Positions 4,501 to 58,143 of a stretch of DNA of 64,000 nt are shown here, piece after piece (positions within the stretch are counted from its first letter, which is position 1; the number at the start of each line of letters is the position of its first letter). The stretch is from Cliona cf. orientalis. Lineage: Eukaryota > Porifera > Demospongiae > Clionaida > Clionaidae. The notes beneath the pieces are model-generated. The model saw only the letters and a list, made by a program, of their open reading frames with translations, was not told the DNA's origin and searched no databases. The position numbers and the translations under genes are program-made. The DNA lies in the NCBI GenBank assembly GCA_963930775.1, contig OZ005692.1:6248135-6312134 (forward strand), read 5' to 3'.

Positions 4501-7500
4501 TATTGATAGACTTTTAGGTATAAAACAGCCCATAGAACGCGATGGTCAAGGTTAGAAGTTCTGAGACTATTCTGTTCTCAAGATATTTTCGTTTCTGTAC
4601 TTATAGAGTCAACTGACTCTATGGTACATCAGCTTTGTACATGTACATGTACATAAATTATTACTAATAATCAACTTTTGTACATGTACATATAGGTGCA
4701 TGTGGAGTACAGACAGACTCTAAAGCAGACTGCATTTCCCACCAATCATCATAACTTTGTGAGTTGTCTTCAGTTTGTACAATAGTCTGTACCGTATAGC
4801 AGGAAACTTTTGAGGGAGAAAACTTCCGCAATCAGTAGGAAGGGGAACATTTCGCAGAGGAAACTTTCACGAAATGTGAAACTGATTGCATACATGTAGA
4901 TGGGTGTGGTATGCCTAAAATTTTATGGAGAAAACTTTCGCTGGTGGCTGTAAATCTCCCTCAATAATTTCCTGCTATTCAGTATGTCTTATCATTGCCA
5001 CTTCTGACATCTATGTACATTGCACCAAAGGGCTTGTTGTCTATGAAGAGTATATCTTCAGCTGGGAGTTTCCTTAGGGGATTGGCACACCTTTTAACCA
5101 CTATCCTAGTAACACTATGAAGCCAACACTTGCATGTGCATGTGGCAGCTGCCTTGAAGCATAATTTATTATGTTCCTTCATCATTGCACCTACACAGAC
5201 AGACCTTGGTGTGTGAGAGTACATTGGGTGATTGTATACTTAATATGTATGAGATAATTATAATACATGTACAATGTATATGTACTACAGGTGCGGCGAA
5301 CATTCATTACCTGGCAGTACTGTGATGTTTGTAAGAAGCACATCTTCCATGGCTTCAAGTGAGCTAGAGCGTCTGCACAGCTTGTATAATTTAATGTATA
5401 CTGTATAGTGGGAAACTTTGGTAAAACTGCTCTCAGTTGGTACTGTCGAAAATTAAAGTAATTGCTTAGTGCTAAGTCATATAGGTGCACATGCAGTTGC
5501 ATAAATTGGATTTGGTAATGTTTACCCAATTAGTCAAATGGCCAGATTAAAAACCTCACCAAAGTTTATTATGGTAACTATTGTTCATATGTACATGACA
5601 ATGTATAACTGAATGATCAGGGGCTATGGCTACAATAGATAATGTATGTGATCATCTCATTACTCTAAAATTTTTGGAGCAATGATTAATACTGTATAGA
5701 ACGCATGATCCAATTTAATGCAGTAATGATTGTACAATGATTGTGAAAACTGTTGTGATTAGGTGTGAGACGTGTGGGTATCGCTACCATCAGCGTTGTA
5801 GTCCAGGTGTGCCCATTAGGTGCTCCTATGTCGATGAGGACATCTTCTATGCCACGTGAGTACACTTGTGTTGACTTCCAATGATGGGGACTTTGTAATA
5901 CTGTAGAAACTGGTTGTTAAGCGCATGCGCTTATAATAATTGACGACAAGTAACTAGGTGCTTAATAAATAGTATGCGCTTAACAGCGAGTGTGCGCTTA
6001 ATAGAAAGGGCGTAGGCATTTAAGGCAGGGCCATCTACCGCGTGGTGTTAAAAGTCGTTGATGCGTCTTGATCGCAATGGAAGAGTATGTTATGGAGAGT
6101 GTCATTCGAGGACATCACATCTACAAAAGCGTTTGTCATCCAGTGGTGGGAGAGCAACTTACTCTTGAGAGAGAAAACAGCAACAGTCATGACAGACACG
6201 CTGTCAGTGTGATGAAAGACACCTCAATAATCACACGTACTGATGTCCACATAATACATACGTTTGTTAGACACATGCGCTTAATAAATGTGGGGGAAAC
6301 CCTCTTAAAACTATGCGCTAAATAAAAAGTATGCGCTTAACAACGAACAGCACTTAACAACCCAGTTTCTACGGTATTTTGAATACATGTGTACACGTAC
6401 ATGTACATGTTCATAATGGTTCAGCTGATATGGTTGGAGGCCTTCATATCTGTGTTGATAGCAGCTGAGCTGTACATGTAGTAGAGTACCACCACAGACC
6501 CTGCCGTTCATGCAATGATGTACATGTATCTATACACATCTGTTCACACACAATATACATGTACATGTATGCATACACACTCGACCACAGCATCCTTTCT
6601 GGTCAGAATACGCCCACTGCTGTCCTCCATCCCTCTTCCTCTACCTCTGCCCTGCCTCGCAGCAATAATATTACTCCTTATTCCCTGATTCTCTCTGATA
6701 AGATCCAGCCGCTTCGCTCCGACAGTCCTCCAGACCAGCAGCAGGCACCCGCACCAGCAGGACCTGCCACTACTCTGCAACAACATAGGTAAAATGTTCA
6801 AGTGATGTCAGTGCGAACCTTAGCTAGCTCTTGGATATTAGTACCTGGCAACAGTGGATAGTTACCAGTACACTATGGGTGGATATGGTGGCCTGCAGTT
6901 AGCTAAGTAGGTTGATTCATGAGAAAGTATTGTCTGAGTCATTGTAACAGAGGCAGTAGACTCTGTTTTTGGCTTCTTGCCTTCACTGCTCATGAGAGAG
7001 ATGGCAATGAGTTCTTGGCCAGCTGATTGATTTAGGCTGCAGACTTGATAGTATGTTGTACAGGCAATGCTGTCTGAGTCTCTTTTACCTTATTATAAAC
7101 CCTTCATGTGTGCAGGGTCTGTCCTTTCACAGCCCTGTTGGCGATATATGCATGCTGGATGGGTTCAGGTGGTACATACATGTGTATAACGTGCATATGG
7201 CATTTTAACTTGCATAGTGTACATTGTTACAGTACCTTTGGTAATCACTATGATAATTCATTATACTCAGGAAAGTGTCTCGTGAGCGTTCCATCTCTAC
7301 TCCTTCGATCATCAACTCGCTGACCAATGCCAGGGACAGGACATACAGTGAAGAATCGCGCTTCTCAAGGAGCCAGTCTCCTCATACTCGCACTACTGGA
7401 GCAACCACACCTACGGCATCAATACTGGATGTTCCACCGTGAGCAAATATCATTGAAAATAATTTGATCTGGAATTTTTGTTGCTATTGCTTTTTATGGC

Positions 7501-21049: not shown

Positions 21050-24000
21050 TGGGGAGATAATGAACAACTTAGAGACTACATCCCGAGTCCCTCACGAAAA
21101 GTAGCCGCCATAAATTCGAACTAGGACACGTCGACGAACTGCGCATGCTCCGTACACGCGTATATTGGGGCGCGCGGCTTGAGCCGGTTGACCCGAACGT
21201 GACCTCCACCTGCCCATGTGCTAGACTGAACAGGGAAATCCCCCCGAGTGCGAGCTCGCCAAAGAAAGCGAACTGAGAAAATCGCCATATCTCATCGAAA
21301 GTCCACGACGTCTGCTACGCTAGGTTCGAATTCTGGGTCCCAACAACCTCTCATGCGCGCTAAACATTTTGAAACAGTTTCACAGCAATTACATCATGAA
21401 TTTCATCATAAATTTCATCATAAGTTACCTCATCGGTTTTCATCATCATTTCATCATCAATTACTCATCGCGCGGCCGAATTGTTTTTTGCGGATTGGGA
21501 CTCGGGACGTAATGAACAACTTGGAGACTACGTCCAGAGTCCCTCACGAATACGCCGCCATAAATTCGAACGAGGACACATTGACAAACTGCGCATGCTC
21601 CGTATACGCGTACACTATTGGGGCGCGCGGCTTGAGCCGGTTGACCTTCACCTGCCATGTGCTCGACTGAATAGGGAAATCCCCCCGCCCTGAACGCGAG
21701 CTCGCTAGAGAAAGCGAACTGAGAGAAACGCCATAAGGATATCATCGGATAGTCCACGATCTCTTCTACGCTAGGTTCGAATTCTGGGTCCCAACAACCT
21801 TTCATGCGCGCTAAACATTTTGAAACAGTTTCATAGCAATTACATCATAAGTTTCATCATAGGTTTCATCATCATTTCATCACAATTTCATCATAATTTC
21901 ATCATAGCTAGAGCCGAATTCTTTGTTTCTAATTGGGACTCTGGACGTAATGAAAAACTTAGAGACTATGTCCAGAGTCCCTCATGAAAAGTAGCCGCCA
22001 TAAATTCGAACTTGGACACGTCGACAAACTGCGCATGCTCCGTACACGCGTATATTGGGGCGCGCGTCTTGAGCCGGTTGACCCGAACGTGACCTCCACT
22101 GCCATGTGCTAGACTGAACAGGGAAATCCCCCCGAGTGCGAGCTCGCCAAAGAAAGCGAACCGAGAAAATCGCCATATCTCATCGATAGTCCACGATGTC
22201 TTCTACGCTAAGTTCGAATTCTGGGTCCCAACACCCTGTCATGTGAGCTAAACATTTTGAAACAGTTTCACAGCAATTACATCATAGGTTTCATCATAGA
22301 TTTCATCATTAATTACATCATAGATTTCATCATAATTTCATCATAGCGAGAGCGGAATTCTTTGTTTCTAATTGGGACTCTGGACGTAATGAACAACTTA
22401 GAGACTACGTCCAGAGTCCCTCATGAATACGCCGCCATAAATTCGAACTAGGACACATCGACAAACTGCGCATGCTCCGTATACGTGTACAATATTGGGG
22501 CGCGCGGCTTGAGCCGGTTGACCTTCACCCGCCATGTGCTCGACTGAATAGGGAAATCCCCCCGAGTGCGAGCTCGCCAAAGAAAGCGAACCGAGAAAAT
22601 CGCCATATCTCATCGATAGTCCACGATGTCTTCTACGCTAGGTTCGAATTCTGGGTCCCAACAACCTTTCATGCGCGCTAAACATTTTGAAACAGTTTCA
22701 CAGGAATTACATCATAAGTTTCATCATAGGTTTCATCATCATTTCATCATAATTTCATCATAGCGAGAGCCGAATTCTTTGTTTCTAATTGGGACTCTGG
22801 ACGTAATGAACAACTTAGAGACTACGTCCAGAGTCCCTCACGAATACGCCGCCATAAATTCGAACTAGGACACATCGACAAACTGCGCATGCTCCGTATA
22901 CGCGTACAATATTGGGGCGCGCGGCTTGAGCCGGTTGACCTTCACCTGCCATGTGCTCGTTCATCATAATTACCTCATCGCGAGGCCGAATCGATTTGTT
23001 AATTGGGACTCTGGACGTAATAATGAACAACTCAGAGACTACGTCCAGAGTCCCTCATGGATACGCCGCCATAAATTCGAACTGGGACACATCGACAAAC
23101 TGCGCATGCTCCGTATACGCGTACAATATTGGGGCGCGCGGCTTGAACCGGTTGACCTTCACCTGCCATGTGCTCGACTGAATAGGGAAATCCCCCCGAG
23201 TGCGAGCTCGCCAAAGAAAGCGAACCGAGAAAATCGCCATATCTCATCGATAGTCCACTATGTCTTCTACGCTAGGTTTGAATTCTGGGTCCCAACACCC
23301 TTAGCCTCGTCCCCAGGCCACTCCCACGTTTTCAATGTTGCACGCAGAAAAGAGGGAGAGCCTGGGAGGCGAAATCACGTGAGCGCGGTTGCGCAATGGC
23401 TTTGTACACAAAACATAGAACCGTACCGATAGCACAAACGGCCCTATTTCGCAGTTTGTTAGCCTTTGCTACTGTTTCAGGGGAGTCACTCGAGACGTTT
23501 ACAGCTACTAAAAGTGTTCAACTCGATCGCTGTGTCGATTTGTCTGTTGTGGCCGCTCGGATCGATCATCTAGTCTGAAGTCTCTAGTCACGATCGACGT
23601 TATCTCGAGTGTTGGATGTCAAATGTAGTCGTGCACTGGCCAGGTGAGCGAAGATAACGCCCGCACTTTCCTTCAAAACATAGTTTTTCACGGTTCGGGT
23701 ACGCTTTGTGTACAAAGCGATTGCGCAATCGCGCTCACGTGATTTCGCCTCCCAGGCCTTCCCTCTTTTCTGCGTGCAACATTGAAAACGTGGGAGTGGC
23801 CTGGGACGAGGCTACAACACCCTGTCATGTGAGCTAAACTTTTTGAAACAGTTTCACAGCAATTACATCATAGGTTTCATAATAAATTTCATCATAGATT
23901 TCATCATAATTTCATCATAGCGAGAGCCGAATTCTTAGTTTCTAATTGGGACTCTGGACGTAATGAACAACTTAGAGACTACGTCCAGAGTCCCTCACGA

Positions 24001-24375
24001 ATACGCCGCCATAAATTCGAACTAGGACACATCGACAAACTGCGCATGCTCCGTATACGCGTATAATATTGGGGCGCGCGGCTTGAGCCGGTTGACCTTC
24101 ACCTGCCATGTGCTCGACTGAATAGGGAAATCCCCCAGCCCTGAAAGCGAGCTCACTAGAGAAAGCGAACTGAGAGAAACGCCAAAAGGATATCATCGGA
24201 TAGTCCACGATCTCTTCTACGCTAGGTTCGAATTCTGGGTCCCAACAACCTTTCATGAGCGCTAAACATTTTGAAACAGTTTCACAGCAATTACATCATA
24301 ATTTCATCATAGGTTTCATCATTATTCATCATAATTAGCGAGAGCCGAATTCTTTGTTTCTAATTGGGACTCTGG
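21050..24375. repeat. 420-440 bp tandem repeat array, eight units, each with a hairpin
   Basis: Each unit contains a palindrome (GGGACTCTGGACGTA, spacer AATGAACAACTTAGAGAC, TACGTCCAGAGTCCC), a GC-rich block with GCGCATGCTCCGTATACGCG and GGGGCGCGCGGCTTGAGCCG, and a tail of TTTCATCATAA repeats. Palindromes lie near 21053, 21497, 21935, 22373, 22790, 23005, 23948 and 24366. One unit (22790-23005) is cut to about 215 bp and one is split by 23301-23814. The many open frames on both strands repeat from unit to unit and are not independent genes. Confidence 0.9.
23301..23814. mobile_element. hAT-like element with 8-bp target duplication
   Basis: Arms of about 110 bp, starting TAGCCTCGTCCCCAGGCCAC and carrying CAATGTTGCACGCAGAAAAG, face each other around a unique centre. 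CAACACCC flanks both ends (23293-23300 and 23815-23822), and other units of the host array contain this sequence once. An 8-bp duplication is the hallmark of hAT transposons. A 60-residue plus-strand frame spans the centre without recognised similarity. Confidence 0.85.
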
Positions 24376-24399
24376 ACGTAACTATGATTATGAGTACTA

Positions 24400-32066: not shown

Positions 32067-35000
32067 TTATTTTAGCAAATCCTCCTGAGTGTATGTCTCA
32101 CACTGGTGTTGTGATATGGACCCTTTGTTGGAAGTCTCAATTGACTGAGTTGCATGATTTATCGAAGGCCGCGGTATTCGGACCAATTGATATCCAACAT
32201 TGCCCCGTCTATTATGAGCATCAACAAATTCAAGAAATACATCCATATCTTCATGATCACCAAGTTGTTCCACATCATTGTTTTTATGCTGTATGTTTCT
32301 CACCTTTTTTCGATACAAAACATAAGTGATTATCACTAGAAATTGAATAAAAGCGAAAATAGCAGAGAGGTAAGCAATTGGGGCCTGCTCTCTGTCTGCA
32401 TCTAGTGCGAACCACGTAAAGGTACAAAGTATGATAATACTAAAGTAGACAGATGTTTCCATGAAATCAATGATCAAATTCTTGTAGACTCTCAATGCGA
32501 TGGAGGCCTTGAGGAATAGAAGACAACCAACCGTGAATGCTGTAGATGTAAGCACAATTCTTGGATCACCAGAAAAATTTGTTGCTGCAACAAGATACAA
32601 TGCGAACCGAATAATAAGTAACAGCCCCACCCAGTAGCGATGTTTGCCATTGAAAGGAGCATGGTAGGTTTCCATAAAAGAATTCAGCTTACATGTAGAA
32701 TTCCTGGTCCACTTAAGTATTTTCCATTGCTGACCATAGAGAATCCACTGCCACAAGAAAAGAAGCATTGTATAAGCAAATCCAAAAAGTAAGATTATTA
32801 TCGCTGTGATGAACAATGGGATGTGCTTTCCCTTCAGATACTCCACGCTAGCATCAGGGCGCCACACGTACCTTACAGAGCCATTGGGATAATGCAAAGT
32901 AGCAAATGATAGAGCAGAGATTGTAGTGCTAAGAAACTTTGTATACGATAGCAAAATAAGAGTTGATAATGTAGCCACAGGATTTTTCTTTCCAATGAAG
33001 TTAGCAAATCTGGAAGAATATTGACTGACCTTTATGATTATGAGTACGAGTATAAATACGTACAAAGGAAAGACTAACTGCAACCATGTCCTGATGTAGG
33101 TGTCCATTCCATTCAGGTAGCATACATTGAGTCCCAAATCAAAATTAAGCAGTGATATGAATACAGAGGCAAAGTTAGGTAGAGGCTTAGGAAGAAAAGT
33201 ACTGTAACTAGCAGCTATTACATTTGCATAGAATATGATTCCATTGATAGTTCCCTCAGCAACAGTTAGATTTAACACAAGAATTAAGATACACAGAACA
33301 AGTCCTCCTAATAAAGCACCCAAAGTAATTGGGAAGGCCAGCCAATGTTCTGTGCATGAAAGGCACTTTGAACTACCAAGAGAGAGACTGAGACCAGGTT
33401 GACACCTTCCACAGAGTAATCCAGTACGATTGAAGGCACACTGTGCATCAGAACCACTGGGAACGTTAAGATTAAGCTCTGTAATAGGAGGCTTACAATA
33501 GTCCATGGGACAAAATTCATAAATCAAATATCCTGAGTTATTTATGTAGGTAAGCCAAAAATCAGTCTCCCTCTGAATTGTACCAGTTGATGAGTTACAC
33601 CTTGTTATGACAACAAATGGCTTCAGAGATGAGTCACAAGTGCATTCGCATCTCTCGTTAGTAGTTTGTGGCTCAAATCCAATTGGACACCCTGAACAGG
33701 AATAAAAATCAATATCAAATCTAAGCTTGGATAGCTCAGCATCCTCACACGGTCCTTCAACATGTAGGATAAATTTGTCTGAACTATTTCCTGGTGATGT
33801 GCTAGTAATTTCAAGATCAGTGCATACAGAATTTCTATCTTTGTTAACTGTAAAAATATGCTTCATCAAATCATTTTTCGTTGACTCGAAGGAGCTATAC
33901 ACTGTGGCAGGAACAGGTTGATTGGCCTGGTCTACTGCAGCAACTGAGATAGTAAAAGATTCACCTTTCATTATCTTGATTGGACAGGGTTGGTAATTAC
34001 AGTCCGGCCAACCACCTCTACAAGAGCAGATCTGAATTGGATCAGAGCTGATACTTTTCAGCTGAATATTGCTGATACGGGTGATGTATGATGTTCCATT
34101 CACCATGGCAATGGTTGTTGGGATCAAGCCACTTTCTGGGTGTGGATGATTTTGAGCTATGTTGGATTGACTAATGATGCAACTAGAGATCAGTCCTCCA
34201 TATATGCCAGGACCAGATTTAGCAGTATTGTTGAAGAAGTGTACTAGGCTATTTTCACTAAAGATCGAGGTGAATGTTGATGAATCAGTAGGTTCATTGA
34301 TCATATAAGACGGCTGAATGTTGTACTGCTCAATAGTTTGAAGAAAACACTCATTGGTGACATAGGGGAGCATGTTTGTGCTTGTACAGGAGTGAGGTCC
34401 GTCTATGACATGTACTGCTCCTCCATCTGTTTCCGCTGAATTTGAAATAAAACTGATTGCATTGGTAGAGTTTGCTTCAGTCTTCAATATATAAATTTTG
34501 GTATCCATTTCCAAGCAGATCCCTCCACCCATCCCTGCCCTGTTTTTCGTAAAGTAAACTGTGGAATGGGGGTTGGTCACTTTGATTAGTGAGCTAAAAG
34601 CATGGACTCCTCCTCCTCTCATGGCAGCAGAATTATTATGAATGAGAAGGTTACATTCAACCTTGCAATTAAGTTCACTCTGGTAAAGATAGACACCACC
34701 TCCGGTATCTGTGGCCTTATTGTCGGCTATGACACACTCTCCATTCAAGTATACTTTGCTTTCAGCAACAATCAATCCACCCCCAACTTTGGCACGATTG
34801 CTGATGAAAGAACACTGTCCATTAAAGGTGATTGTACTTTCAAATGTTATTGTGAGTGCCCCACCTTCGAGTCGACTGATTTCAGTTGCTGTTGCTCTCT
34901 TTGTTGTTGCAGGTTCCTCTGGTGAAGGATCAGATGAACTGTTTTCAAAGACAGTGATACCACCGAATGTAACGTGACTGCTAATGGTATATAGTGATCC

Positions 35001-37142
35001 ACGGTTTTGTTTAAAAGTGGTGTTTCCAGTAAAATTAGCAGTGGTGTCATACAGGTAAATCACTCCTTTCAGGGCTGTGTTCATGTGAATAGTTGTCTCA
35101 CCACTCGTATGAATAGCACCATTCATCCAGTGTATAACAGACCCATAATATTTCGCTTCATTATTATGAAAATCACTTCCATGCACTATGTTCAGTCTTG
35201 CACCTACTCCAGTCAAGGCACCACCATCTTTCATTGCTCTATTGTTGCTAAACTTGGATTTCTCTATGATCAGTGAACTTCCATGGGAATACACTGCACC
35301 GCCTTCTTTTGTAGCTTCTTGGTGCATTAGTATGCTACTATTCACAATAAGTGTACCCTGGTATGATGCTAAAGCTCCTCCCCATTTAGCTCTGTTATTT
35401 GTAAATGTGCATGTCTCCATAGTGATGGTAGAATTCTCGTATGCTGCTACAGCACCAGCCCACTTTGCAGTGTTGCTTATGAACTTACAATTTCGTATCA
35501 TCACTGTATTTTGTGCACCTGTTATCCCTCCAGCATCATTGCTTGCATTATTGAACGAAAAAGTACTGCTTTCAACTATCACAATAGAATTATCGATAGA
35601 GGAAATGCTACCACCATTTGTAGCCTGATTATGTGCAAAGTTGCAGTCAGTGACCATAGCTGTGCCTTGCTGTATTGTCATTACTCCCCCATTTCCATTC
35701 AGTGTCACTGAATTGGCGGTGAAATTATTCCTTGTAGCATTTATAAAAGCAGCATATGAGTATACAGTGCCAGCAGACAAGTTAGCACTGTTGTTATACA
35801 TTGTACTTTCATAGAGTGTGACAACGTTGTCACTAACAGTACCTATTTTGAAAGTTGCATATACTGCTCCTCCTGTATCATTTGCTCGGTTGTGGCTCAG
35901 CATACTTTTAATCACATTAAGAATGGTGTTTTTTGTGAACACTACACCACCGAATAGATTTGCTACATTGTAGCTGAAGTAGCTTTTGTGAAGTATAACT
36001 GATCCGCTTTCAGCGTAAATCACTCCACCTCTATTGTATGCTTTATTGCCAGTGAATACACACCTGTCTATGCTAAGTTCACTTTGCAATGTGTACAAAG
36101 CTCCCCCATAGCCAGGTGCTGCTGTGCCAGCACTAGGGTGAGGATTAGCCACACTCATGCTCTGACTGTAGTCTGCTACATTACTGGTTAAGTTGCACTC
36201 ACTAAGGTTAATGACACTCCTGTAGGCAAATATTACACCACCACTTTGAACCGAATGCTCAAGAAAAGTACACTGGTTAGCAGTCAATGAGCTGTTGTGG
36301 AGAAAAACTGCTCCTCCAGAGCCACGGTTCAGTACCATTGCTAACGAAATATTTCTTCTAGCAGTTGCTATACCATTATCAATGTTATTATGCTGGCCGA
36401 TTCCAGTAAATCTGCTACGACTGATCACAATCTGGCTACCTTGCTCTGCAAATATAGCTCCTCCGAGTGGAGCACTGTTTCCATTAAAATTACAATCACT
36501 GATGTCGACATTGCTTTCTCTAGTAGCAACAATTGCTCCACCTAAAGAAGTATTATCCAGATTATCTCCTTCACTTAGGGCCAGTACTGGGCCTGCATGT
36601 TTGCTACCAACTATGTTGGACACAAAAGAGGAATTCATTACCATTAAGTTTGAATGGTTTACTGTCAATGCAGTGCCACTGTTTTCACTGCCCATAAAGA
36701 TGGTATTAATAATTACTTGCCTATTATTTGAGTCAGTTATGGTGAACACACATCCTCTAAATTCCAGATCTGATATGACAAGATGATCAAAGTTATTGAA
36801 GTTGAATCCTGATGATTTGTCACAAACAATGATAGGTTTTGCTGAATTTCCTTGGCTTGAGAACATTTCAAATCCCTGGACATTAACTAACTTCAATTCA
36901 GTCTCGAGATAGTGTTTGCCAGGCAGAAAATAAAGTGAATTCAAAGACCTGGGATCAGCAAACTGAGCAGAATTATCAGCAAATTGGGATAGGGTTAGGC
37001 ACACGTCTCCATGGTTTACTTCGCAGGGACCATTTTCTACATCAATACTTGGCATGATGAAGTACGCCTTACCACTCACCATATTAATACTACAGCTCAT
37101 GAGCAGCAGCAGTGTGACTGAGACTGCTATAGCTGCAGCCAT
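32067..37142 (-). CDS. Giant beta-helix repeat, multi-pass membrane protein
   Basis: 1691 residues in a single exon, starting at the ATG at 37142. A signal peptide (about 1-25) is followed by roughly 850 residues of short repeats built on NxA...GGAIxA and FxxNxA (such as GGAVYATF, GGALTGVG, GGGVHAFS). This is the pattern of right-handed parallel beta-helix proteins and of the repeats named after chlamydial polymorphic membrane proteins. Around 1040 there is a Cys-rich CSCRGGWPDCNYQPCPIKI segment, and around 1240-1266 a second one (LLCGRCQPGLSLSLGSSKC). From about 1267 there are about eight hydrophobic helices, beginning at FPITLGALLGGLVLCILILV, and a roughly 90-residue cytoplasmic tail. The architecture suggests a surface receptor or adhesion protein with a carbohydrate- or microbe-binding stalk (inference). 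The function is not known. Confidence 0.88.
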   Translation of the reverse strand: MAAAIAVSVTLLLLMSCSINMVSGKAYFIMPSIDVENGPCEVNHGDVCLTLSQFADNSAQFADPRSLNSLYFLPGKHYLETELKLVNVQGFEMFSSQGNSAKPIIVCDKSSGFNFNNFDHLVISDLEFRGCVFTITDSNNRQVIINTIFMGSENSGTALTVNHSNLMVMNSSFVSNIVGSKHAGPVLALSEGDNLDNTSLGGAIVATRESNVDISDCNFNGNSAPLGGAIFAEQGSQIVISRSRFTGIGQHNNIDNGIATARRNISLAMVLNRGSGGAVFLHNSSLTANQCTFLEHSVQSGGVIFAYRSVINLSECNLTSNVADYSQSMSVANPHPSAGTAAPGYGGALYTLQSELSIDRCVFTGNKAYNRGGVIYAESGSVILHKSYFSYNVANLFGGVVFTKNTILNVIKSMLSHNRANDTGGAVYATFKIGTVSDNVVTLYESTMYNNSANLSAGTVYSYAAFINATRNNFTANSVTLNGNGGVMTIQQGTAMVTDCNFAHNQATNGGSISSIDNSIVIVESSTFSFNNASNDAGGITGAQNTVMIRNCKFISNTAKWAGAVAAYENSTITMETCTFTNNRAKWGGALASYQGTLIVNSSILMHQEATKEGGAVYSHGSSLIIEKSKFSNNRAMKDGGALTGVGARLNIVHGSDFHNNEAKYYGSVIHWMNGAIHTSGETTIHMNTALKGVIYLYDTTANFTGNTTFKQNRGSLYTISSHVTFGGITVFENSSSDPSPEEPATTKRATATEISRLEGGALTITFESTITFNGQCSFISNRAKVGGGLIVAESKVYLNGECVIADNKATDTGGGVYLYQSELNCKVECNLLIHNNSAAMRGGGVHAFSSLIKVTNPHSTVYFTKNRAGMGGGICLEMDTKIYILKTEANSTNAISFISNSAETDGGAVHVIDGPHSCTSTNMLPYVTNECFLQTIEQYNIQPSYMINEPTDSSTFTSIFSENSLVHFFNNTAKSGPGIYGGLISSCIISQSNIAQNHPHPESGLIPTTIAMVNGTSYITRISNIQLKSISSDPIQICSCRGGWPDCNYQPCPIKIMKGESFTISVAAVDQANQPVPATVYSSFESTKNDLMKHIFTVNKDRNSVCTDLEITSTSPGNSSDKFILHVEGPCEDAELSKLRFDIDFYSCSGCPIGFEPQTTNERCECTCDSSLKPFVVITRCNSSTGTIQRETDFWLTYINNSGYLIYEFCPMDYCKPPITELNLNVPSGSDAQCAFNRTGLLCGRCQPGLSLSLGSSKCLSCTEHWLAFPITLGALLGGLVLCILILVLNLTVAEGTINGIIFYANVIAASYSTFLPKPLPNFASVFISLLNFDLGLNVCYLNGMDTYIRTWLQLVFPLYVFILVLIIIKVSQYSSRFANFIGKKNPVATLSTLILLSYTKFLSTTISALSFATLHYPNGSVRYVWRPDASVEYLKGKHIPLFITAIIILLFGFAYTMLLFLWQWILYGQQWKILKWTRNSTCKLNSFMETYHAPFNGKHRYWVGLLLIIRFALYLVAATNFSGDPRIVLTSTAFTVGCLLFLKASIALRVYKNLIIDFMETSVYFSIIILCTFTWFALDADREQAPIAYLSAIFAFIQFLVIITYVLYRKKVRNIQHKNNDVEQLGDHEDMDVFLEFVDAHNRRGNVGYQLVRIPRPSINHATQSIETSNKGSISQHQCETYTQEDLLK

Positions 37143-37315
37143 CACTGTATTGTTCAGTAATAAATATCAGTAGTGTACCTAGTTTGTGAGGAAAAAGGGT
37201 ATATGGTAAATTTGCAGTATTTTTGTAGTTGATGACAGGTATAATTCATACATACGTTATGAGGTGAGCTAGTATTCCATCCACAAGAGCTATATGCTCC
37301 ATTCAAAAGATTAGT

Positions 37316-49223: not shown

Positions 49224-52200
49224 TTAATTTTCAGGAGCAGTTTCGAGATCTTTCAAAAAGTCTCCGTACTCAATAAACTGCTTAATTCTTTCCTTCATCC
49301 AGGGCCCATACTCAAATGTGTCTGTGCACTCTGCAGCTGACGAGATACTGGATAGATCCTGAGGCAGATTGCGTGGGACTTTGGCATGGTAGGATGGCTC
49401 GAAAAAGAATGGTACAGACTGACGTGGACGGCCTATGGCTAGAACACGATGCTCCGTGGATTTTAATCTATCCCCAGTCATGTGAGTCAAGACAGTGCCC
49501 AGGTTGACAACCAAAGAGCCTTCTCGAGGTCTCACATCAAACCACTCGTTCTCCTCCGTCATGATCTGTAGCAACAAACACATCAATGATGTACATAAAC
49601 ATTAGGCCACAATAATATTAGCTACATACAGAAAGTATGCTGGTCTGCAGCAACTTGCAACAGAAAGCAATTATCAAGTCCCTTATTTACATAAAGCAGT
49701 TACCATTTCTTGCCACAACTGCAGGGCTTCATTGGGAGTGGGGGTGTGTGGGGGAAGGGGGAACTTAATAGACTCTTGAACCCCACCCCCCCCACCCCCC
49801 CCCCCCCCCCATGAAACCAGTATTATCACATGCATCAGGGGTGGATCCAGAATTTGAGGAAGGGGGAGCACAATAGGCATGCGCAAAATTTTTGGCCACA
49901 CCCCGAAAACAATATACCACACCTCCTAATTGCCGCAATCAAGGCAGTAAAGTGCTCCATTTCAATAAAGTTTTGAACGTCTGAGCAGATCTTGGTATGT
50001 TTTATGAATGAACAAGTTGAAGACACTAATTTACAGATCATTAGGAAACTCACAGCTGAAGGGGGAGACCTGGCCCCCTGTTCCCTCCCCCTGGATCCTA
50101 TCACTGTGCTCCCCCCCCCCTCCCCCCTTCCTCAATTCCTGGACCTGCCCTTGCAGTCACCATTACACCTCCCAAGAGAAAGGTATACACATGTAACTAG
50201 CGGGGAACAATGAATTTCAGATACTTTATCTATTTCCTAACCTGGAGTCCTTCATAGTCGAATGTACAGAGCAGAGTCACAATGGATGTATCAGTATGGC
50301 GAGCTGTGCTGACAAGCTTCCCATCTGTATCAAAAGCATCATCAGGCAACTTAAAATCATGAACAGGATAGTTGATAAGCCGAAGAGTTGAGAGAGTCCA
50401 AGGACTGTATAGACACTCAAAGAATGTCTCATTCATGCCCAATCCTAAGCATATCAGACGCAAAAATTCAGTACAGGTCCTGACAAGCACTGCATGAAAC
50501 TCAGTCATAAACTTGTGAAACTCTTGATATGGTGTTGAGTCCTCTCCATTGTCAGGTTGAGGCCATGTGCTGTGCTCAGTTATGGGATAACCGGACTGGA
50601 GTTCTGGGTGGCCAGCTGGGAGGTCTTGACCCATCTCAAATGCTTCTTTGTATGAGCTGCCAACCTTATTCACACCGAAGTACCCTCTGAAACGCTGCAA
50701 AATCAAGAATAAGCATTTCATTATGCATCGTTGTTATGTAAAGTGTCTCCAGCAAAATTTAATTTGATAATTTAATACTGACAACAATTATTACTGTAAT
50801 AGAACGTATGATTGTAAGAAATTAACATTTATGAATTCTCATAATGTTTATATGACATTGTAATAGTTATATCACTGAGTGCAATATGTTGCCATAGATT
50901 CCGAGTGCATGTGATATAACTAATTTATATTCCGAGGAAGTAAACAGTGGCCCCCGCAGTGTTTTATCACACCACTGATTGGTCAATGGCTCCTCTCCAT
51001 GGAAACAAGCTGCTCCATAGAAACAAATTCAATTTTGATAGTGACAAAGACAAAGAATCATCCAACTCGAACTCGATGACTGAGCGAGGTTAACTATTAA
51101 CGCCAACACTAGGCATACGTGTAGTCTTTCATTGTATGCATAGCTGTTCCATGCTTTGGATGTCTTGACTGTTTTGCCAACTCCATTATTCACTCCTTTC
51201 AGGAAGTGTGAGCTGCGATCGAGATAAAGATAAGCTGATTTCAATGGCCTTGTTAATGCCATATATAGCACTTCAAGTTTATGAGGTAGGCTACAAATGC
51301 TGTTAGGGTAATGGATCCGTGCAGTATCGTATGTACATGTCCTATACCATACCATAGATACTATACTTACACTGTATTTTACTAGAATGTCAGAAAAAAG
51401 AATTTATTTGAAAAACGTACACTTTTCTGGTATAGGTCGTCAATCTCCCCATATACTTGTATATCCCTATAGGACAATTACCCTTAATAATTATCACACT
51501 GCTAAGTGTGTGATATTAACCCTCTCAGGGTGTACAGTGCGATATTAATTCCTTTAGAGTGTACTATACTTGATACTGCTCAAGGTAAGTTAGGAATATG
51601 AAGTACATGTATAATAGGTATAGGGAGGGAATAGGTGACCAAGGTTTTCCCCAATCAAGAATACAGTCGCAGGCCTAGGAAGCGTATGAGCTAGCACCAC
51701 AAGGATACAATTTAGCAATCATTCAATTGACACTTGCCACGTACAAGAACTAGCTAGCTACCGTATTACCTCTAATTTAACAGACACGAGAAAAATAATT
51801 ATTTTGGCCAATGTCCGCTATAATTAAAGCACACGAAAATAGTTGGCGTTCGAAGTGTCCGATGAATTAGAACACACTTTCACGCATGCGCATTCGGTCA
51901 AATGGACATACATGTACGATTGAGCAGCTGCAGAGATTGAGAAAATGAGACGGTACCTGGAGCTCCCTGTTCATGGTGGGAAAGAGAATAACTCACCTCC
52001 TTCATACACTGATATGGGTATAGGTAGCGCACTAGTGTGAGCTGTCCAGATTAGAACAACGATGTCCAGATAATTAGAACAATAAAAATTCAAACTTCAT
52101 TCACTGTCCGGTGTAATTAGAGGTAAAAAAAATTCGAAATGGTGTCCGGATAATTAGAGGTGTCCGTTAAATTAGAGGCAATACGGTAGTTCATACAGTG

Positions 52201-55200
52201 TACCACACTTCTCTTGATCGAGAAACTAAAAGGATGCCACTATTGTTAACCAAACTGATGCTGGACTACATAATAGTTAGATACTGTTTAGGAGGTTTCT
52301 ATGTGATTTAGAAGACCGAAGGGCTCTATGTAGAATCCCGAGCGAAGCGAGGGTTCTACTGAGCCCTGAGGTCTTCTAAATCACGTAGAAACCGACTAAA
52401 CAGTGTCTAACAACTTTAGATCCTAGCAACAATGCCCATAGGCTTGACATATAAACTGCTGCCTAGCAACAATCCTAACCACAGGCAACAATTTTTTTAC
52501 AGGTTTATATGAAAAATTTACAGGTTTATATGAGAAATAGATACCTGCTCCTGACCAATCAGATAACAGTATTTGTTACAACTAGGATCTAATAAATGCT
52601 AGTAGTACAGCTCAGTAGTGTGCAGCTATTGCCAGTCTGGCACCTACCTCAGCTACATACATGACTGATTGCTTTGCTGGTCAGTCAATGCAGTGCTCAG
52701 TGTACTTAGGGCCAGGTACTAACTGGAAGCTACTGCTGAAAATTATAGGCATACTTCAAAGGCTGGTGCTGCTTCTAAATAGAAGGATAGAGGCCTCATC
52801 GTGGTGTTTGAATGAAAGATTAACTAAGTACTTCAATATTAATAATCAATTAATCACAACCAATTAACTAATTAAGCACTATGCACGGTGTTTAGCCACA
52901 CCCTCTAGATTGCTAAATCGCCAGTTCCAACCTTAAAGCAGCAACTTTCAGCCTACCTTAACTATGAGTAAGAAAGTGATCTAAACTTTCATCGGAGGGA
53001 TTGTGAAAATAGCATTCTGGTCAAGTTTTATTCCATGTAGATATTGTTTTTGGAGTGCTGACAGCTTAATCTTCCGCATACTGTATAGCGGGAAACTTTC
53101 GAGGGAGAAAACTTTCGCGAATCGGTGAAATATAAGATTTCGCGGAGAAAACTTTCGTGGATCTATGATCCTGCATGGGTGTGACTATAGACTGAGCATA
53201 CGCACAGGCAGACCACCTATGGCCACACCCACAATTATCAGTTGGAAGCTTCGAAGCAAGCAAGTACTATTATAAACGAGATCATAATAGTCCGCCTGAT
53301 GAGCACCTACACTGTAGAGACCATCGTTCGTGGCTACCACGTCTACCGGAGTACAGTGTTCATACACTCCATGCTTCGAATTCTTTTCAGGCTTTGTCTA
53401 GAACTTGTTTCACCTCTTTGTTGGCGGCAGCAATACTGGAAGACGGCATGACGGTAGAGAGACGACCTTCAGGCTCTGGTAGCATGGAGCTCAGCTGAAA
53501 GTACTTCAACAGGGGCATTGCAATCGATGGCTGACACCTAGCTTAGCTAGCCGCATATGCGCATAGCTAGCACCTCTATATGACACGTGATGTATGCCAT
53601 GCCCCAAATTTCGTGGAGAAAACTTTCGCTGATGGTCGAAATTCCGTAAAATTTGTGAGAGTTTTCTCCCGGTATGAGTTCAAAATGAACAAACGTATTC
53701 ATAATCTCTCCGATAGATTCTCGAAATCCATCCCAACGATAACCTTCTTGCTGTCAGACCTGCGAAATGTTGAGTGGAATAACCCTGGATGGCTTTTGCT
53801 TGAGATATTGAGCTCCAATCTGCAGCTATGTGGCCCCAACACCGTGGCTTGTATGTGCTCGATACGATAATATGACGTCACAGTACAAGCGCTAATTGAC
53901 CGCAAACATGAGCGATAAGAGGCTGTTAGTCGGGCGCACGCTAAGAGTTCAGAACCTGGCCTTAAGTACACTGAGTGGACAGCGTAAGCAGACAGTGGCT
54001 CTCAAGTACATAATTCAGTCTAGGTATGTCACAGAGGCTTTCTATGGAAGCCGAGAAGTGCAATTTCCCGCACGACGCCCATTTCCGCATGCGGAGGGCC
54101 AGCTCCGCATGCGGACGTACTTTCTCCGCGTGCGGAGAGCCAGCTCCGCATGCGGAGACCCTGCTCCGCATGCGGGGGTGTCTTCTCCGCGTGCGGAGAC
54201 CCTGCTCCGCATGCGGAGATACCTTCTCGGCGTGCGGAGACTCTGCTCCGCATGCGGAGGTAGCGTCTTGACGTGCGGAGACCTTTTTTTCAAACCATCA
54301 CAGCCTAGCCGTTTCATTACCCCACCAGTATTAATAGTAGCGTCGATCTTGGCGTGGTTAACCTTCTTGAGAAGCCTCTTCAGCAGGGACTGTGACTTCT
54401 ACAAGACTGTGACTGCCCGGCGTGCGGGGCCCTAGTGTGGCTAGCGAGACTAGGTCCGGCGACGATCGAGCCAGAGTGTGTCACAATTAGATAGTATACT
54501 AGTAAGTTGTAGCTATTGAATACTTAGTAACTACTGTCCATAATCTCTGGCTACGTTTGCCCGCATGTGGAGCTGGCTCTCCGCATGCGAAGAACGTTTG
54601 CCCGCATGCGGAGATGGCTCTCCGCACGCGGAGAACGTACGTCCGCATGCGGAGCTGGCTCTCCGCACGTGGAGAACGTACGTCCGCATGCGGAGCTGGC
54701 CCTCCGCACGCGGAGAACGTACGTCCGCATGCGGAGCTGGCCCTCCGCATGCGGAAATGGGCGTCGTGCGGGAAATTGCACTTCTCGGCTTCCACAGCTT
54801 TCAGTTTATTCCGAGCGAAGCGAGGTCTCTACTCAGGCTCGAGTCGTAGTGTGGCTTCTGGGTGTATATCTTGCAGGCATCTAAATTTTGGTTCTTATTC
54901 TTTCAGTGACTCAGGCCACATCGCCTGGTGCAACGACGTCAAAAGACATGGGCTCCCTCATGATCAAGGTGAACATGCAAGGCCTATAAAATCTACAGCT
55001 CAGCTGGACTATGCTCACTGGGAAATTAATATTCGTGCGGCCAAAAGTGATTGCACCTTCTTGGCCCAAAATTATTCATCATTTTGCTGATGGTGACGAT
55101 GTACAGAAGCTACCTGGTGTAAATCAGATAATATTAATCACCTAAATACACTGAAAGAAAACAATTTAGCTGTCCTTACATTAGCGTTTCAACTCAAATA

Positions 55201-56278
55201 TTGTCCCCCCAGGGCATTTAGAAAAAGTCAAATCCCCTGTTACCCCCACCCTTGCCTATACAGGGGTAGTGGGGCATAATATTGACAAGTGCATTTATTA
55301 CCCCGCGCGCATGCGCAAGGGGTAAAGCAATCGGTTTGTATGTCTGTTGTTGTTGTTGTAGTTGTCGTCGGCACGAAAATCGCCAGATCTCGAGTTCTAG
55401 GCGTCTGTGCGTGTTGTAAGCACAACCAATCGATAGATATCGGTGAAAAACTGGTTTGTACGCGCTTCGAATTGCTCAAAAAGGCTTACTAGTGCTACAA
55501 ATCGTGCATTTTCTGTTCTGCATGCCTGTGGTTTGTCGACCACACCCACTCTTTTAGTATGCTGATGCAACTGCGCATGCTCAAGCTCAGTGTTGAAAAG
55601 GGTCGTCAAGTCATAAAACAGCTTTGCCCAAGTTGCAATATTGCAGAGTATTGCAGAGCGCGCGGGGTATGTGCTCTACAGAGCTCTAGTTTAGCTATAG
55701 TGTACGTAGTACACCCTTGAAGCATTTTATGCTTAGTCAGCAAAGGTTAACTTTGAATTGAAGTGAGGCAAGGTCAAGAAACATATTATGGCTGGGTATC
55801 ATTTATTTAATGGAAGTGTTCACCAGCAAGCTACAACCAATCCATAAGCCCTTTCTAGTTCCTACAACTAGAGCTACCTAATTGCTGACGAAATTACATC
55901 ATCATACAGTATATGTACAAGCGCCAGGCACATGCACATGCATGCACTATCCATGGTCCATGCATGCCAGGATCGTGGAGGCATTCGTGCATGGCTGACA
56001 CGTGTATTATTAAAATCTGTCCTAACTCGACTCTTCTAGTTTCTGATTCTCACATGTTTGTTCGTTGGGTTGTATCTCTTCCTGGCAATCTTCATCTTCT
56101 TCTCCTTGGAGAGCGACCAAAACCAGTCTACCCACTTACGCAACACTCGCTCGTCGTGGCCGGGCACTTTGTCAAGAAATAGAAATCCAACAGTCTCCAT
56201 AGCGCGTACTATCTGTTGGGCTTTCTTCAGCCGATCGGGAGAAGAAAAATCTATCACTGGAAGGTCAACCATCTTCAT
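49224..56278 (-). CDS. 2-oxoglutarate/Fe(II)-dependent oxygenase (isopenicillin-N-synthase-like)
   Basis: Non-haem iron enzyme coupling 2-oxoglutarate decarboxylation to substrate oxidation. Exons 56278-56054, 50694-50242 and 49565-49224 are all in phase 0 and give 339 residues. The N-terminus has MVDLPVIDFSSPDR and AMETVGFLFLDKVPG, typical of the DIOX_N region. The iron ligands are His208 and Asp210 (STARHTDTSIVTLL) and His265 (LKSTEHRVLAIGRPRQSVPF); Arg274 and Ser276 form the RxS motif that binds 2-oxoglutarate. Another ATG lies two codons after the chosen start (56272). Intron 1 is about 5.4 kb and packed with mobile elements, while intron 2 holds a CAG-ended element. The substrate is not predictable from sequence. 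Confidence 0.92.
49836..50153. mobile_element. CAG-ended element v, reversed copy of element i
   Basis: CAGGGGTGGATCCAG opens the left end and CTGGACCTGCCCTTG the right. The interior matches 37316-37635 in reverse (for example TAAAGTGCTCCATTTC and GAGCAGATCTTGGTATG). No clean 5-bp duplication remains. It lies in intron 2 of the oxygenase gene, next to a poly-C tract. Confidence 0.65.
50862..50926. mobile_element. Foldback MITE, GTTATATCAC family, short copy
   Basis: TAATAGTTATATCACTGAGTGC mirrors GAGTGCATGTGATATAACTA. It is a deleted version of 17627-17772. Confidence 0.6.
51761..52186. mobile_element. TA-flanked MITE in oxygenase intron
   Basis: Left end CCGTATTACCTCTAATTTAA and right end (complement) CCGTATTGCCTCTAATTTAA continue with CGGACACC-like sequence and are flanked by TA. 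Inner motifs GTCCG(C/G)ATAATTA repeat. Confidence 0.78.
52277..52592. mobile_element. Foldback element, TTAGA-ended family, copy 3
   Basis: It is an inverted near-identical copy of 47192-47528, ending GTTACAACTAGGATCTAA. The stem centre reads CCCGAGCGAAGCGAGGG. Confidence 0.85.
53081..53672. mobile_element. MITE-like region, 'GTATAGCGGGAAACTTTCG' family, with HIRAN-like scrap
   Basis: It opens CTGTATAGCGGGAAACTTTC after TA; the far side has GGAGAAAACTTTCGCTGATG and GAGTTTTCTCCCGGTA. At 53299-53360 the plus strand reads STYTVETIVRGYHVYRSTVF, resembling the start of the fragment at 6068-6250. The right boundary is uncertain, so this may be two adjacent fragments. Confidence 0.5.
54043..54796. 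mobile_element. GC-rich element built of TCCGCATGCGGA palindromes, 6-bp duplication
   Basis: The first and last 78 bp are inverted repeats with one mismatch, starting TATGGAAGCCGAGAAGTGCA. GCTTTC flanks both ends (54037-54042, 54797-54802). Inside each end is an array of about eight units containing TCCGCATGCGGA or variants (TCCGCGTGCGGA, TCCGCACGCGGA) in alternating spacing, surrounding a unique centre (about 54290-54545). The open frames across the arrays come from the repeat. It matches no superfamily I can name. Confidence 0.85.
55297..55691 (+). mobile_element. Helitron-like family copy (intact)
   Basis: It begins ATTACCCCGCGCGCATGCGC followed by AAGGGGTAAAGCAATCGGTT, has GCCAGATCTCGAGTTCTAGG in the body, and ends GGGGTATGTGCTCTACAGAG and CTCTAGTT. 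It is the best reference copy for the family in this window. Confidence 0.7.
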
Positions 56279-56393
56279 ACACCGAAGAGGCCCCACCCCC
56301 TCTTACGCCTAGTCTCGCGCGCCAGCCCCTCCTATTATGCAAAAAGCTCATGGCTGAATGCAAATCATGGATCAGTAGCTACCTACATAGGCT

Positions 56394-56743
56394 CAGGGGC
56401 GTACCCAGGATTTAATACAGGGGGTTTCTGACGAAGCGCGCGCGAAAAATTTAGCGACCACGCCCACTTTGGGGCCACGCCCTCTAATTAACGATCGCCG
56501 TTTAGCACGTTTTAGTAGCAGTTTGCCAGATTCTCGAAAATTTTAGCAAAGAAACACAAGGAAAAACACCAGAGGAGAGTTCTAAGCTAAGTTTTAAGAG
56601 ATTTTAGTGCCTGCAGATGGAATCTGGAAACCAAGGGGGTTTCCTATAGCAGCTAAGTCATACTAAGATAATGCTGAATCTGACTGCCAAGGGGAGTTTC
56701 CGGGCAACGAGGAAACAACTCATGCAACTAAGGTACGCCCCTG
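56394..56743. mobile_element. CAG-ended element iv, 5-bp duplication AGGCT
   Basis: Left CAGGGGCGTACCCAGG and right GGTACGCCCCTG are complementary and flanked by AGGCT (56389-56393, 56744-56748). It lies about 110 bp upstream of the oxygenase start, so it may affect the promoter. Confidence 0.82.
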
Positions 56744-58143
56744 AGGCTCTCCCCCAACATTCAAGTTATAGTTATCATACATCCATAGTGTTGAGCCCAG
56801 CCCCCTTGCCTTTATTTCTTTCACTCATTTTTTGGCTTCACTGTGTCATGATCAGATTATGCTATAAATTATGATTATAGTGAAGGTTGCGACAAAAAGT
56901 GAAAGAACGGTGAGGGGGCTGTGCTCAACACTATAGGTGTCACCGCAGGCTGAAAAGATTGATAGTGAGGAGCATGGCACAGTTAATTTCCTAGTTATAG
57001 TAGATCATCCCACAGACAGAATGCATGCACTAGCTAATATAAATCATCTCATTGTGGAAATTATACGTTTCTTTTATCCTAGGGGATATTACATCCTGAA
57101 ATCATCTATGCTGAAATAAACCTCATACAAATTTAATATACTATAATAGGGAAAAGCTATGGTATACTGAACAGAAGCAACTATGCATGTATAATAATGT
57201 TATTATATGAAAATACAAATTTCCTGGGGCAGTGATGGAGATAATATTATTATTATGATAGCTAGATTGGCCGGGGTTGGTACAGCTCACCATGGCTACT
57301 CGGTTACCAATTCTCAGCCCCCCTACTCTTACGTCACTGTTTGCTACTGTAGTGTAGGACCATGATAAGTATACTCGACGCACTTCACTATTACATAATT
57401 ATAATTATGACTAATTAAAGGGGTATGTTAGCCACACCTCTTCCTTCCACTAAGAATCCTCCAAACTTGCCAATATTGAGAGCTTTGTCCATCAAACAAA
57501 CTTCCGCAGAAAATGGTATGTGCTGCGCCCATATAATAATATTAAGCATTGCTACTTAATGCTTTGCTATACATGTACTATATTCCTCTTACTTTCGTTA
57601 TGAGATTAAAAATACTTCCTTCAATTTAAAATTTTAAGTATGTACCATCTCATAGCACACAATAAATATTATAATAATATTCTAATGCTAATTACCTTGA
57701 GCCAAAGGAGTCAGTGCAGATGGGCTAGAAAGAGAATCATAGGCAGCACTGCAGGCAAGTAAAATTGAAGATCGGGTGTTGTGATTAAACATGAAAGGGT
57801 GTTTGTGGTTTGAAAAAACACATCAAGTGCAAATCGAATTTTTAAGAGCAGTGCTGCACTACTCTACCAGCCGCTCTTTAGTGACTTCCCTGCACTGCCC
57901 AAGCAGGCCAACACTGTTCGCAAGGACTTACTGAAGAGATCAGGACTGATAAACTGAGTGAAGTGGTATACTATTGTCTTATACATATTATCGTGATCGA
58001 CGTGCAGTATATTGGTATTGTCAATCCATTCTGTTTAATTAGTGTACTGCAACAGTTTAAAAAGGTGCTTGAGGAAACTTGTGCACCTCAAAATTATTAT
58101 GCAAAGTAGAGTGTGTTGCTTTGTTTGTAGTTCTGCATGTACT
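56744..58143. other. Intergenic region with possible exons on the minus strand
   Basis: Minus-strand pieces 57528-57443 (ending FLVEGR, donor GTGTGG) and 57343-57291 (NSDVRVGGLRIGNRVAM, donor GTGAGC) have compatible phases, but no third exon or family was found. The paired TGAGCCCAGCCCCCTTGCC (near 56795) and GAGGGGGCTGTGCTCAACACTATAGG (near 56912) suggest another small inverted-repeat element. Confidence 0.25.

Follow-up and report, generated by a model that had tools for sequence, protein, structure and literature searches.

Among eukaryotic transposons, IS3EU is a group that has received little study. In the parts of the source available, its ends are given as always TA..TA and its target duplications as usually 6 bp long, and GingerRoot elements are likewise said to make 6-bp duplications, with ends that are TA..TA and occasionally TG..CA (PMC10045372). 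For fungal IS3EU elements, the available sections describe ends of the form TAYGG..CCRTA and inverted repeats longer than 30 bp, and those that bear TET carry an alpha-kinase gene opposite to the transposase (PMC12730594). Styx, an IS3EU-related element of Zymoseptoria, is reported in the available text to have 36-bp inverted repeats and 6-bp duplications, and its recent movement was observed in a pedigree (PMC10853768). Outside this group, the inverted repeats of Galileo contain several transposase binding sites, proposed in the accessible part of the report to give specificity (PMC3688188). In the literature on IS3EU, none of the titles listed describes the family studied here, and no biochemistry was found in the accessible parts; using CCGCATGCGG as a search word gave nothing evidently relevant among the matches listed. 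The family may already be catalogued in Repbase or Dfam. Here we describe one of its copies, located in a stretch of 64,000 nucleotides (the window), together with its relatives in the host genome.

Structure of the window element

The element is non-autonomous and spans 754 bp at positions 54043..54796, exactly the coordinates of the original prediction, as delimited by its ends (TATGG..CCACA, the termini being TATGGAAGCC and GGCTTCCACA) and by its target duplication. The latter, GCTTTC, was found by flank comparison as had been predicted, and is perfect, with 6 bp on the left (54037..54042) and 6 bp on the right (54797..54802). End-to-end alignment of the left (54043..54120, plus strand) and right (54719..54796, minus strand) terminal inverted repeats gave 77 matches in the outermost 78 bp, that is, the single mismatch foreseen, and 111 in 115 over a longer stretch. 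This low divergence had also been taken as a sign of recent movement, a step that we do not follow, as the likeness of two ends alone does not date an insertion.

Inside the ends lie the two facing palindrome arrays that had been announced. The left one (54084..54278) is made of TCCGCATGCGGA and variants whose starts are 20-21 bp apart; the right one (54560..54755) is made of the same palindrome and variants, with a double unit of 41 bp, and the middle between them (54279..54559) has no palindrome array. Allowing up to two mismatches, TCCGCATGCGGA was matched 23 times in the whole window, 19 of them within the element; in 100 shuffled versions of the window the mean number of matches was 1.20 and the maximum 4. 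The two bins of 500 bp that hold the element have a G+C content of 0.568 and 0.546; the surroundings had been described as AT-rich, which is mildly overstated because the remaining 14 bins of 500 bp in the interval 50000-58000 range from 0.364 to 0.494.

A transposase gene was looked for in the window copy (54043-54796) and none was found, and an Rfam search of the window gave no match. The best genomic relatives of the element display 95-96% identity over its bases 1-512 and 511-754. Elsewhere in the window, a 1699-aa frame on the minus strand (32070-37166) matches the Chlam_PMP repeats of Pfam, a frame at 15123-16637 matches amine oxidase, and another at 28868-29473 matches a VWA domain.

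Copies and target sites in the host genome

The existence of other copies, proposed as a check on the element, was examined in the host assembly (216.8 Mb, 149 contigs), where 263 sites match the 24-bp end with up to three mismatches, against 0 for the reversed control. A set of 38 two-ended elements was counted, after dropping L001-L008 and L046 (the same places twice), L022 and L043 (overlapping L066 and L061) and 13 unpaired ends. Their target duplications are exact in 30 cases, with one mismatch in 6, two mismatches in 1 and four mismatches in 1; as a control, flanks were paired across elements, and 2 of these 1406 combinations agree. The consistency of the ends and of the 6-bp duplications across copies thus bears out the claim of a DNA transposon family. 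As to end types, 18 of the 38 elements are TA..TA and 20 have one TG-type end, TG at both ends being found in none.

Five of the 38 elements make up a second subfamily, in which the outer 24 bp are the same except for one base and the inner repeats differ, being tandem CCGCAAC/CCGCATC; its exact end occurs 78 times in the genome. Among the copies there is one of 94 bp (L067:1574-1667), with little beyond two ends and one palindrome, and flanked by an exact duplication, CTTTGG.

Uninterrupted targets, which the original prediction had also suggested looking for, were seen in related repeats. With the element removed and its flanks joined, L019 has five matches (89-94%) in a tandem repeat of the window (21,255-24,383), and the target GTTTCA is intact at three of these five places; the case is weakened because the target area is an 11-12-bp tandem repeat. 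The tandem repeat of the window extends over 21058-24383, with a unit of ~417-437 bp and short ATTTCATCATA runs, and its relatives are the target of L019. For L062, a place in L070 resembles the joined flanks with 84% identity. Flank comparison of L073, considered as a third uninterrupted target, gave no clear case, and an apparent empty site of L015 was rejected, being the L015 locus itself. For the window element 40 of 953 candidates were scored, two of the 40 rows corresponding to its own locus, and at 38 of the 40 listed places the match to the joined flanks spans the junction, with 84-94% identity. These matches stop 3-8 bp past the junction, where a high-copy repeat probably has its edge. 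The sequences on both sides of the element (53974-54042 and 54803-54810) form a repeat of ~72 bp that is present at 38 other listed places, the element lying 3-8 bp from its edge.

A longer relative with a transposase gene

The original prediction had also pointed to the need for a longer relative with a transposase, and such an element, of 10.77 kb, was found on contig 11 in one copy. It is one of three copies longer than 6 kb that were examined, together with L009 and L061. It is 10,770 bp long, is flanked by the exact duplication CTGATC, and has ends and arrays like those of the window element: the right arm of the window element shares 95.9% identity over 244 bp with the contig-11 G end, ~115 bp in the left part of the middle of the window element resemble both contig-11 ends (83-84%), and non-autonomous copies resemble its A end to ~929 bp inward. 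On its minus strand, five predicted exons, free of stops and separated by four GT..AG introns, together code for a DDE transposase core. The joined core exons match Pfam rva_4 with an E-value of 4.4e-20, at profile positions 1-119 of 194, and Pfam rve with an E-value of 0.02; we take rva_4 to be the IS3EU transposase type. A later frame on the minus strand (L010:8204-8434) matches rva_4 positions 142-173 with an E-value of 0.005, below the family cut-off. Judged by eye, the motifs HVDGYD, RSDYGTEN and RIEGWW would presumably hold the D, D and E of this transposase. A PDB search with the core gave no match.

In the stretches compared, no second inverted repeat was found more than 675 bp from the termini, thus giving no sign that the transposase gene is nested in the contig-11 element. 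Of the 26 genomic places that match the central transposase exon, the one on contig 11 alone is enclosed by a pair of family ends, going by the ends listed (part of all), so that a single copy among those examined ties the family ends to a transposase.

Other sequences were considered as movers and set aside. Pfam rve_3 has at least 67 matches (150 of 433 candidates scored), many of them in frames longer than 900 aa and retroelement-like; the best one (L078) adjoins reverse-transcriptase-like sequence and was discarded as a Gypsy-type retroelement, to which we assume its motifs to belong. In a second-subfamily copy (C14:4733515-4739327), 601 bp of the centre resemble a LINE-type endonuclease frame, a type that we presume from its motifs; two further long end pairs of this subfamily are located at C4:1722192-1727501 and C14:2923577-2929605. 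Of 79 frames collected near other ends, 65 were analysed and 14 set aside; no transposase was revealed among the 25 families listed out of 27.

On account of the duplication length, the TATGG..CCATA ends and the transposase type, we provisionally file the family in the IS3EU/GingerRoot lineage, an assignment made from sequence features. The element had been presented as possibly new and had been left without a superfamily; at that level, the ends, the duplication length and the transposase point to this known lineage instead. The 6-bp duplications (exact in 30/38) agree with the lineage, as does the DDE integrase-like transposase enclosed by family ends in one copy, the contig-11 element; the A-type TATGG ends fit TAYGG..CCRTA and the TGTGG ends do not.

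Spacing of the palindromes

Palindromes are regularly spaced in family-1 copies, where 703 of the 775 spacings below 60 bp are of 20, 21 or 22 bp. The G end of the contig-11 element has 18 palindromes whose spacing alternates between 20 and 21 bp, and its A end has 25, with the same alternation save for one step of 23. A spacing of ~20.5 bp is about two turns of B-DNA, and successive palindromes should therefore face the same side of the helix. Moreover, a CCGCA motif is common to both subfamilies, being located in the inner repeats of the second one, and this motif together with the helical phasing suggests a protein-binding array. We infer from these sequence patterns that the palindromes bind a protein, and it is plausible that they are transposase-binding sites, as the original prediction had it. 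The arrays would not be strictly needed, because an exact duplication also flanks the 94-bp copy, which contains a single palindrome; in our analysis a role in enhancement, such as has been put forward for the repeated binding sites of Galileo (PMC3688188), appears likelier than a strict need.

The kinase gene opposite the transposase

The plus strand of the contig-11 element, opposite the transposase, carries protein-kinase exons that match ordinary protein-kinase families in Pfam. The kinase exon has 29 genomic matches, 9 of which are within 6 kb of a transposase-exon match, on the opposite strand in 6 of these pairs and on the same strand in 3. Loci with such a pair include C1:8.73, C1:35.07, C1:29.86, C6:2.39 and C2:1.34 Mb. 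With contig 11 excluded, 8 of 28 are paired, compared with 0.18 on average and at most 4 over 2000 random placements, for which part of the end and rva_4 lists was used and the lengths of three contigs were assumed. In 6 of 7 places, the first-exon domain and the kinase exon share a strand and are no more than 4 kb apart. Given its recurrence beside the transposase, the kinase gene is more probably part of the element than a capture from the host. A kinase relic at C1:33164737 is located ~290 bp outside, and not inside, a family end. At G000:C1:15824672-15845108, second-subfamily ends 20.4 kb apart enclose a kinase match with stops.

A recurring kinase, of another fold than the fungal alpha-kinase, raises the question of why such transposons keep one. 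It could be, although we consider it rather unlikely, that the IS3EU machinery regularly includes an element-encoded kinase in this animal-like genome as it does in fungi, though here one of another fold; a dimeric protein encoded by the element would then assemble on the helically phased arrays, along one face of the DNA, thereby pairing the ends, and the kinase would regulate this assembly or the host response.

Proposed mechanism and alternative explanations

Our main reading, to which we give a probability of about 0.75, sees in the 754-bp unit a non-autonomous member of the IS3EU/GingerRoot lineage of DNA transposons, one that moves by cut-and-paste through the transposase of autonomous relatives and whose palindromes most likely bind a dimeric protein. 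A transposase produced by autonomous copies (the contig-11 element or a relative) would act in trans, recognising the common terminal sequence; it would excise the non-autonomous copy and insert it with a 6-bp stagger, which would give rise to the 6-bp duplication. The palindromes, one per ~20.5 bp, would bind a dimeric protein along one face of the DNA. This protein, a partner of the transposase or the DNA-binding portion of the transposase itself, would assist in bringing the two ends together and pairing them.

Both other copies longer than 6 kb contain a transposase of a different kind. The 6.9-kb copy (L009) bears the family ends, its duplication is almost exact (GTATTG/GTATTA) and it contains exons that match TNP-like_RNaseH_N (E 1.4e-10), which might suggest that a P-superfamily transposase moves the family; we find this extremely improbable, as the P-like unit (L009 1712-7237) is nested. 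It has ends CAAGAG..CTCTTG, its own inverted repeats (1712-1857 and 7093-7237) and a 7-bp duplication, ATCACGC, and its insertion place is uninterrupted in L012 and L017, thus being a later insertion that does not link the family to the P superfamily through a cognate transposase; a 403-aa frame on the strand opposite to the P-like gene of L009 has no Pfam match. It is hardly credible, too, that the mover is a KDZ (Kyakuja-Dileera-Zisupton) transposase like that of the 6.2-kb copy (L061), even though this copy bears the family ends, is flanked by a duplication that differs at one base and contains a KDZ match (E 2.3e-13), since the KDZ unit (L061 1061-6681), situated inside the palindrome array, has its own inverted repeat and recurs in L076 and L077 with more than 99.6% identity (3.7 kb compared), among other flanks and without arrays. 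It is therefore also a later insertion, albeit one around which no clear target duplication of its own was seen, and provides no cognate transposase that would make the family a member of KDZ/Zisupton. That the contig-11 transposase is in turn a passenger or an old nested copy, the true mover belonging to another, perhaps undescribed, lineage with 6-bp duplications, seems to us quite unlikely. The mixed TA/TG type of the ends would be consistent with such a passenger, as would the single linking copy and the two closest paralogues of the contig-11 exons (61-62% identity), near which there is no family end among those listed; however, no nested boundary was found in the contig-11 element, and the 6-bp duplications and TATGG ends are, in the descriptions available, those of the very lineage that its transposase resembles.

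Protein binding by the arrays has a competing explanation of its own, which we hold to be possible if somewhat doubtful: they might be satellite-like tandem repeats that expand and contract through slippage or recombination, or might act through hairpins, CpG content or chromatin. Their size would suit this explanation, varying from 1 to 45 palindromes per copy, and so would the periods of 20, 41 and 61 bp reported by Tandem Repeats Finder for the window arrays, the one palindrome of the 94-bp copy and the different inner repeats of the second subfamily. On the other side are the phasing near two helical turns, the recurrence of CCGCA in those same inner repeats, and a palindrome core better conserved than the spacers across 864 units, a difference that is inflated by selecting the units by core likeness. 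The family offers natural copies down to 94 bp, a series of 1-45 palindromes and a relative whose predicted transposase core exons are free of stops, and with these the role of sub-terminal repeats becomes testable.

Comparison with known systems

The family resembles IS3EU/GingerRoot in its 6-bp duplications and its DDE integrase-like transposase, and in part also in its ends, those of the TATGG..CCATA type, and in the inverted repeats longer than 30 bp of the window copy. It departs from that lineage in having one TGTGG end in 20 of 38 elements, and never two, such mixed ends being absent from the available portions of the descriptions, and in its phased palindrome arrays, which those portions do not mention. 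As in the TET-bearing IS3EU elements of fungi, a kinase gene lies opposite the transposase (contig 11), but the kinase is here of the ordinary protein-kinase fold by Pfam, whereas the fungal one is an alpha-kinase. Styx is similar in its inverted repeats and 6-bp duplications, as described in the accessible text; it differs in being fungal, and palindrome arrays are not mentioned in that text. Finally, going by the parts of the sources available, Galileo and Foldback-like elements of the P superfamily share with our family long, internally repetitive inverted repeats, although they belong to another superfamily, and Galileo has a THAP DNA-binding domain and binding sites proven by footprint and gel shift.
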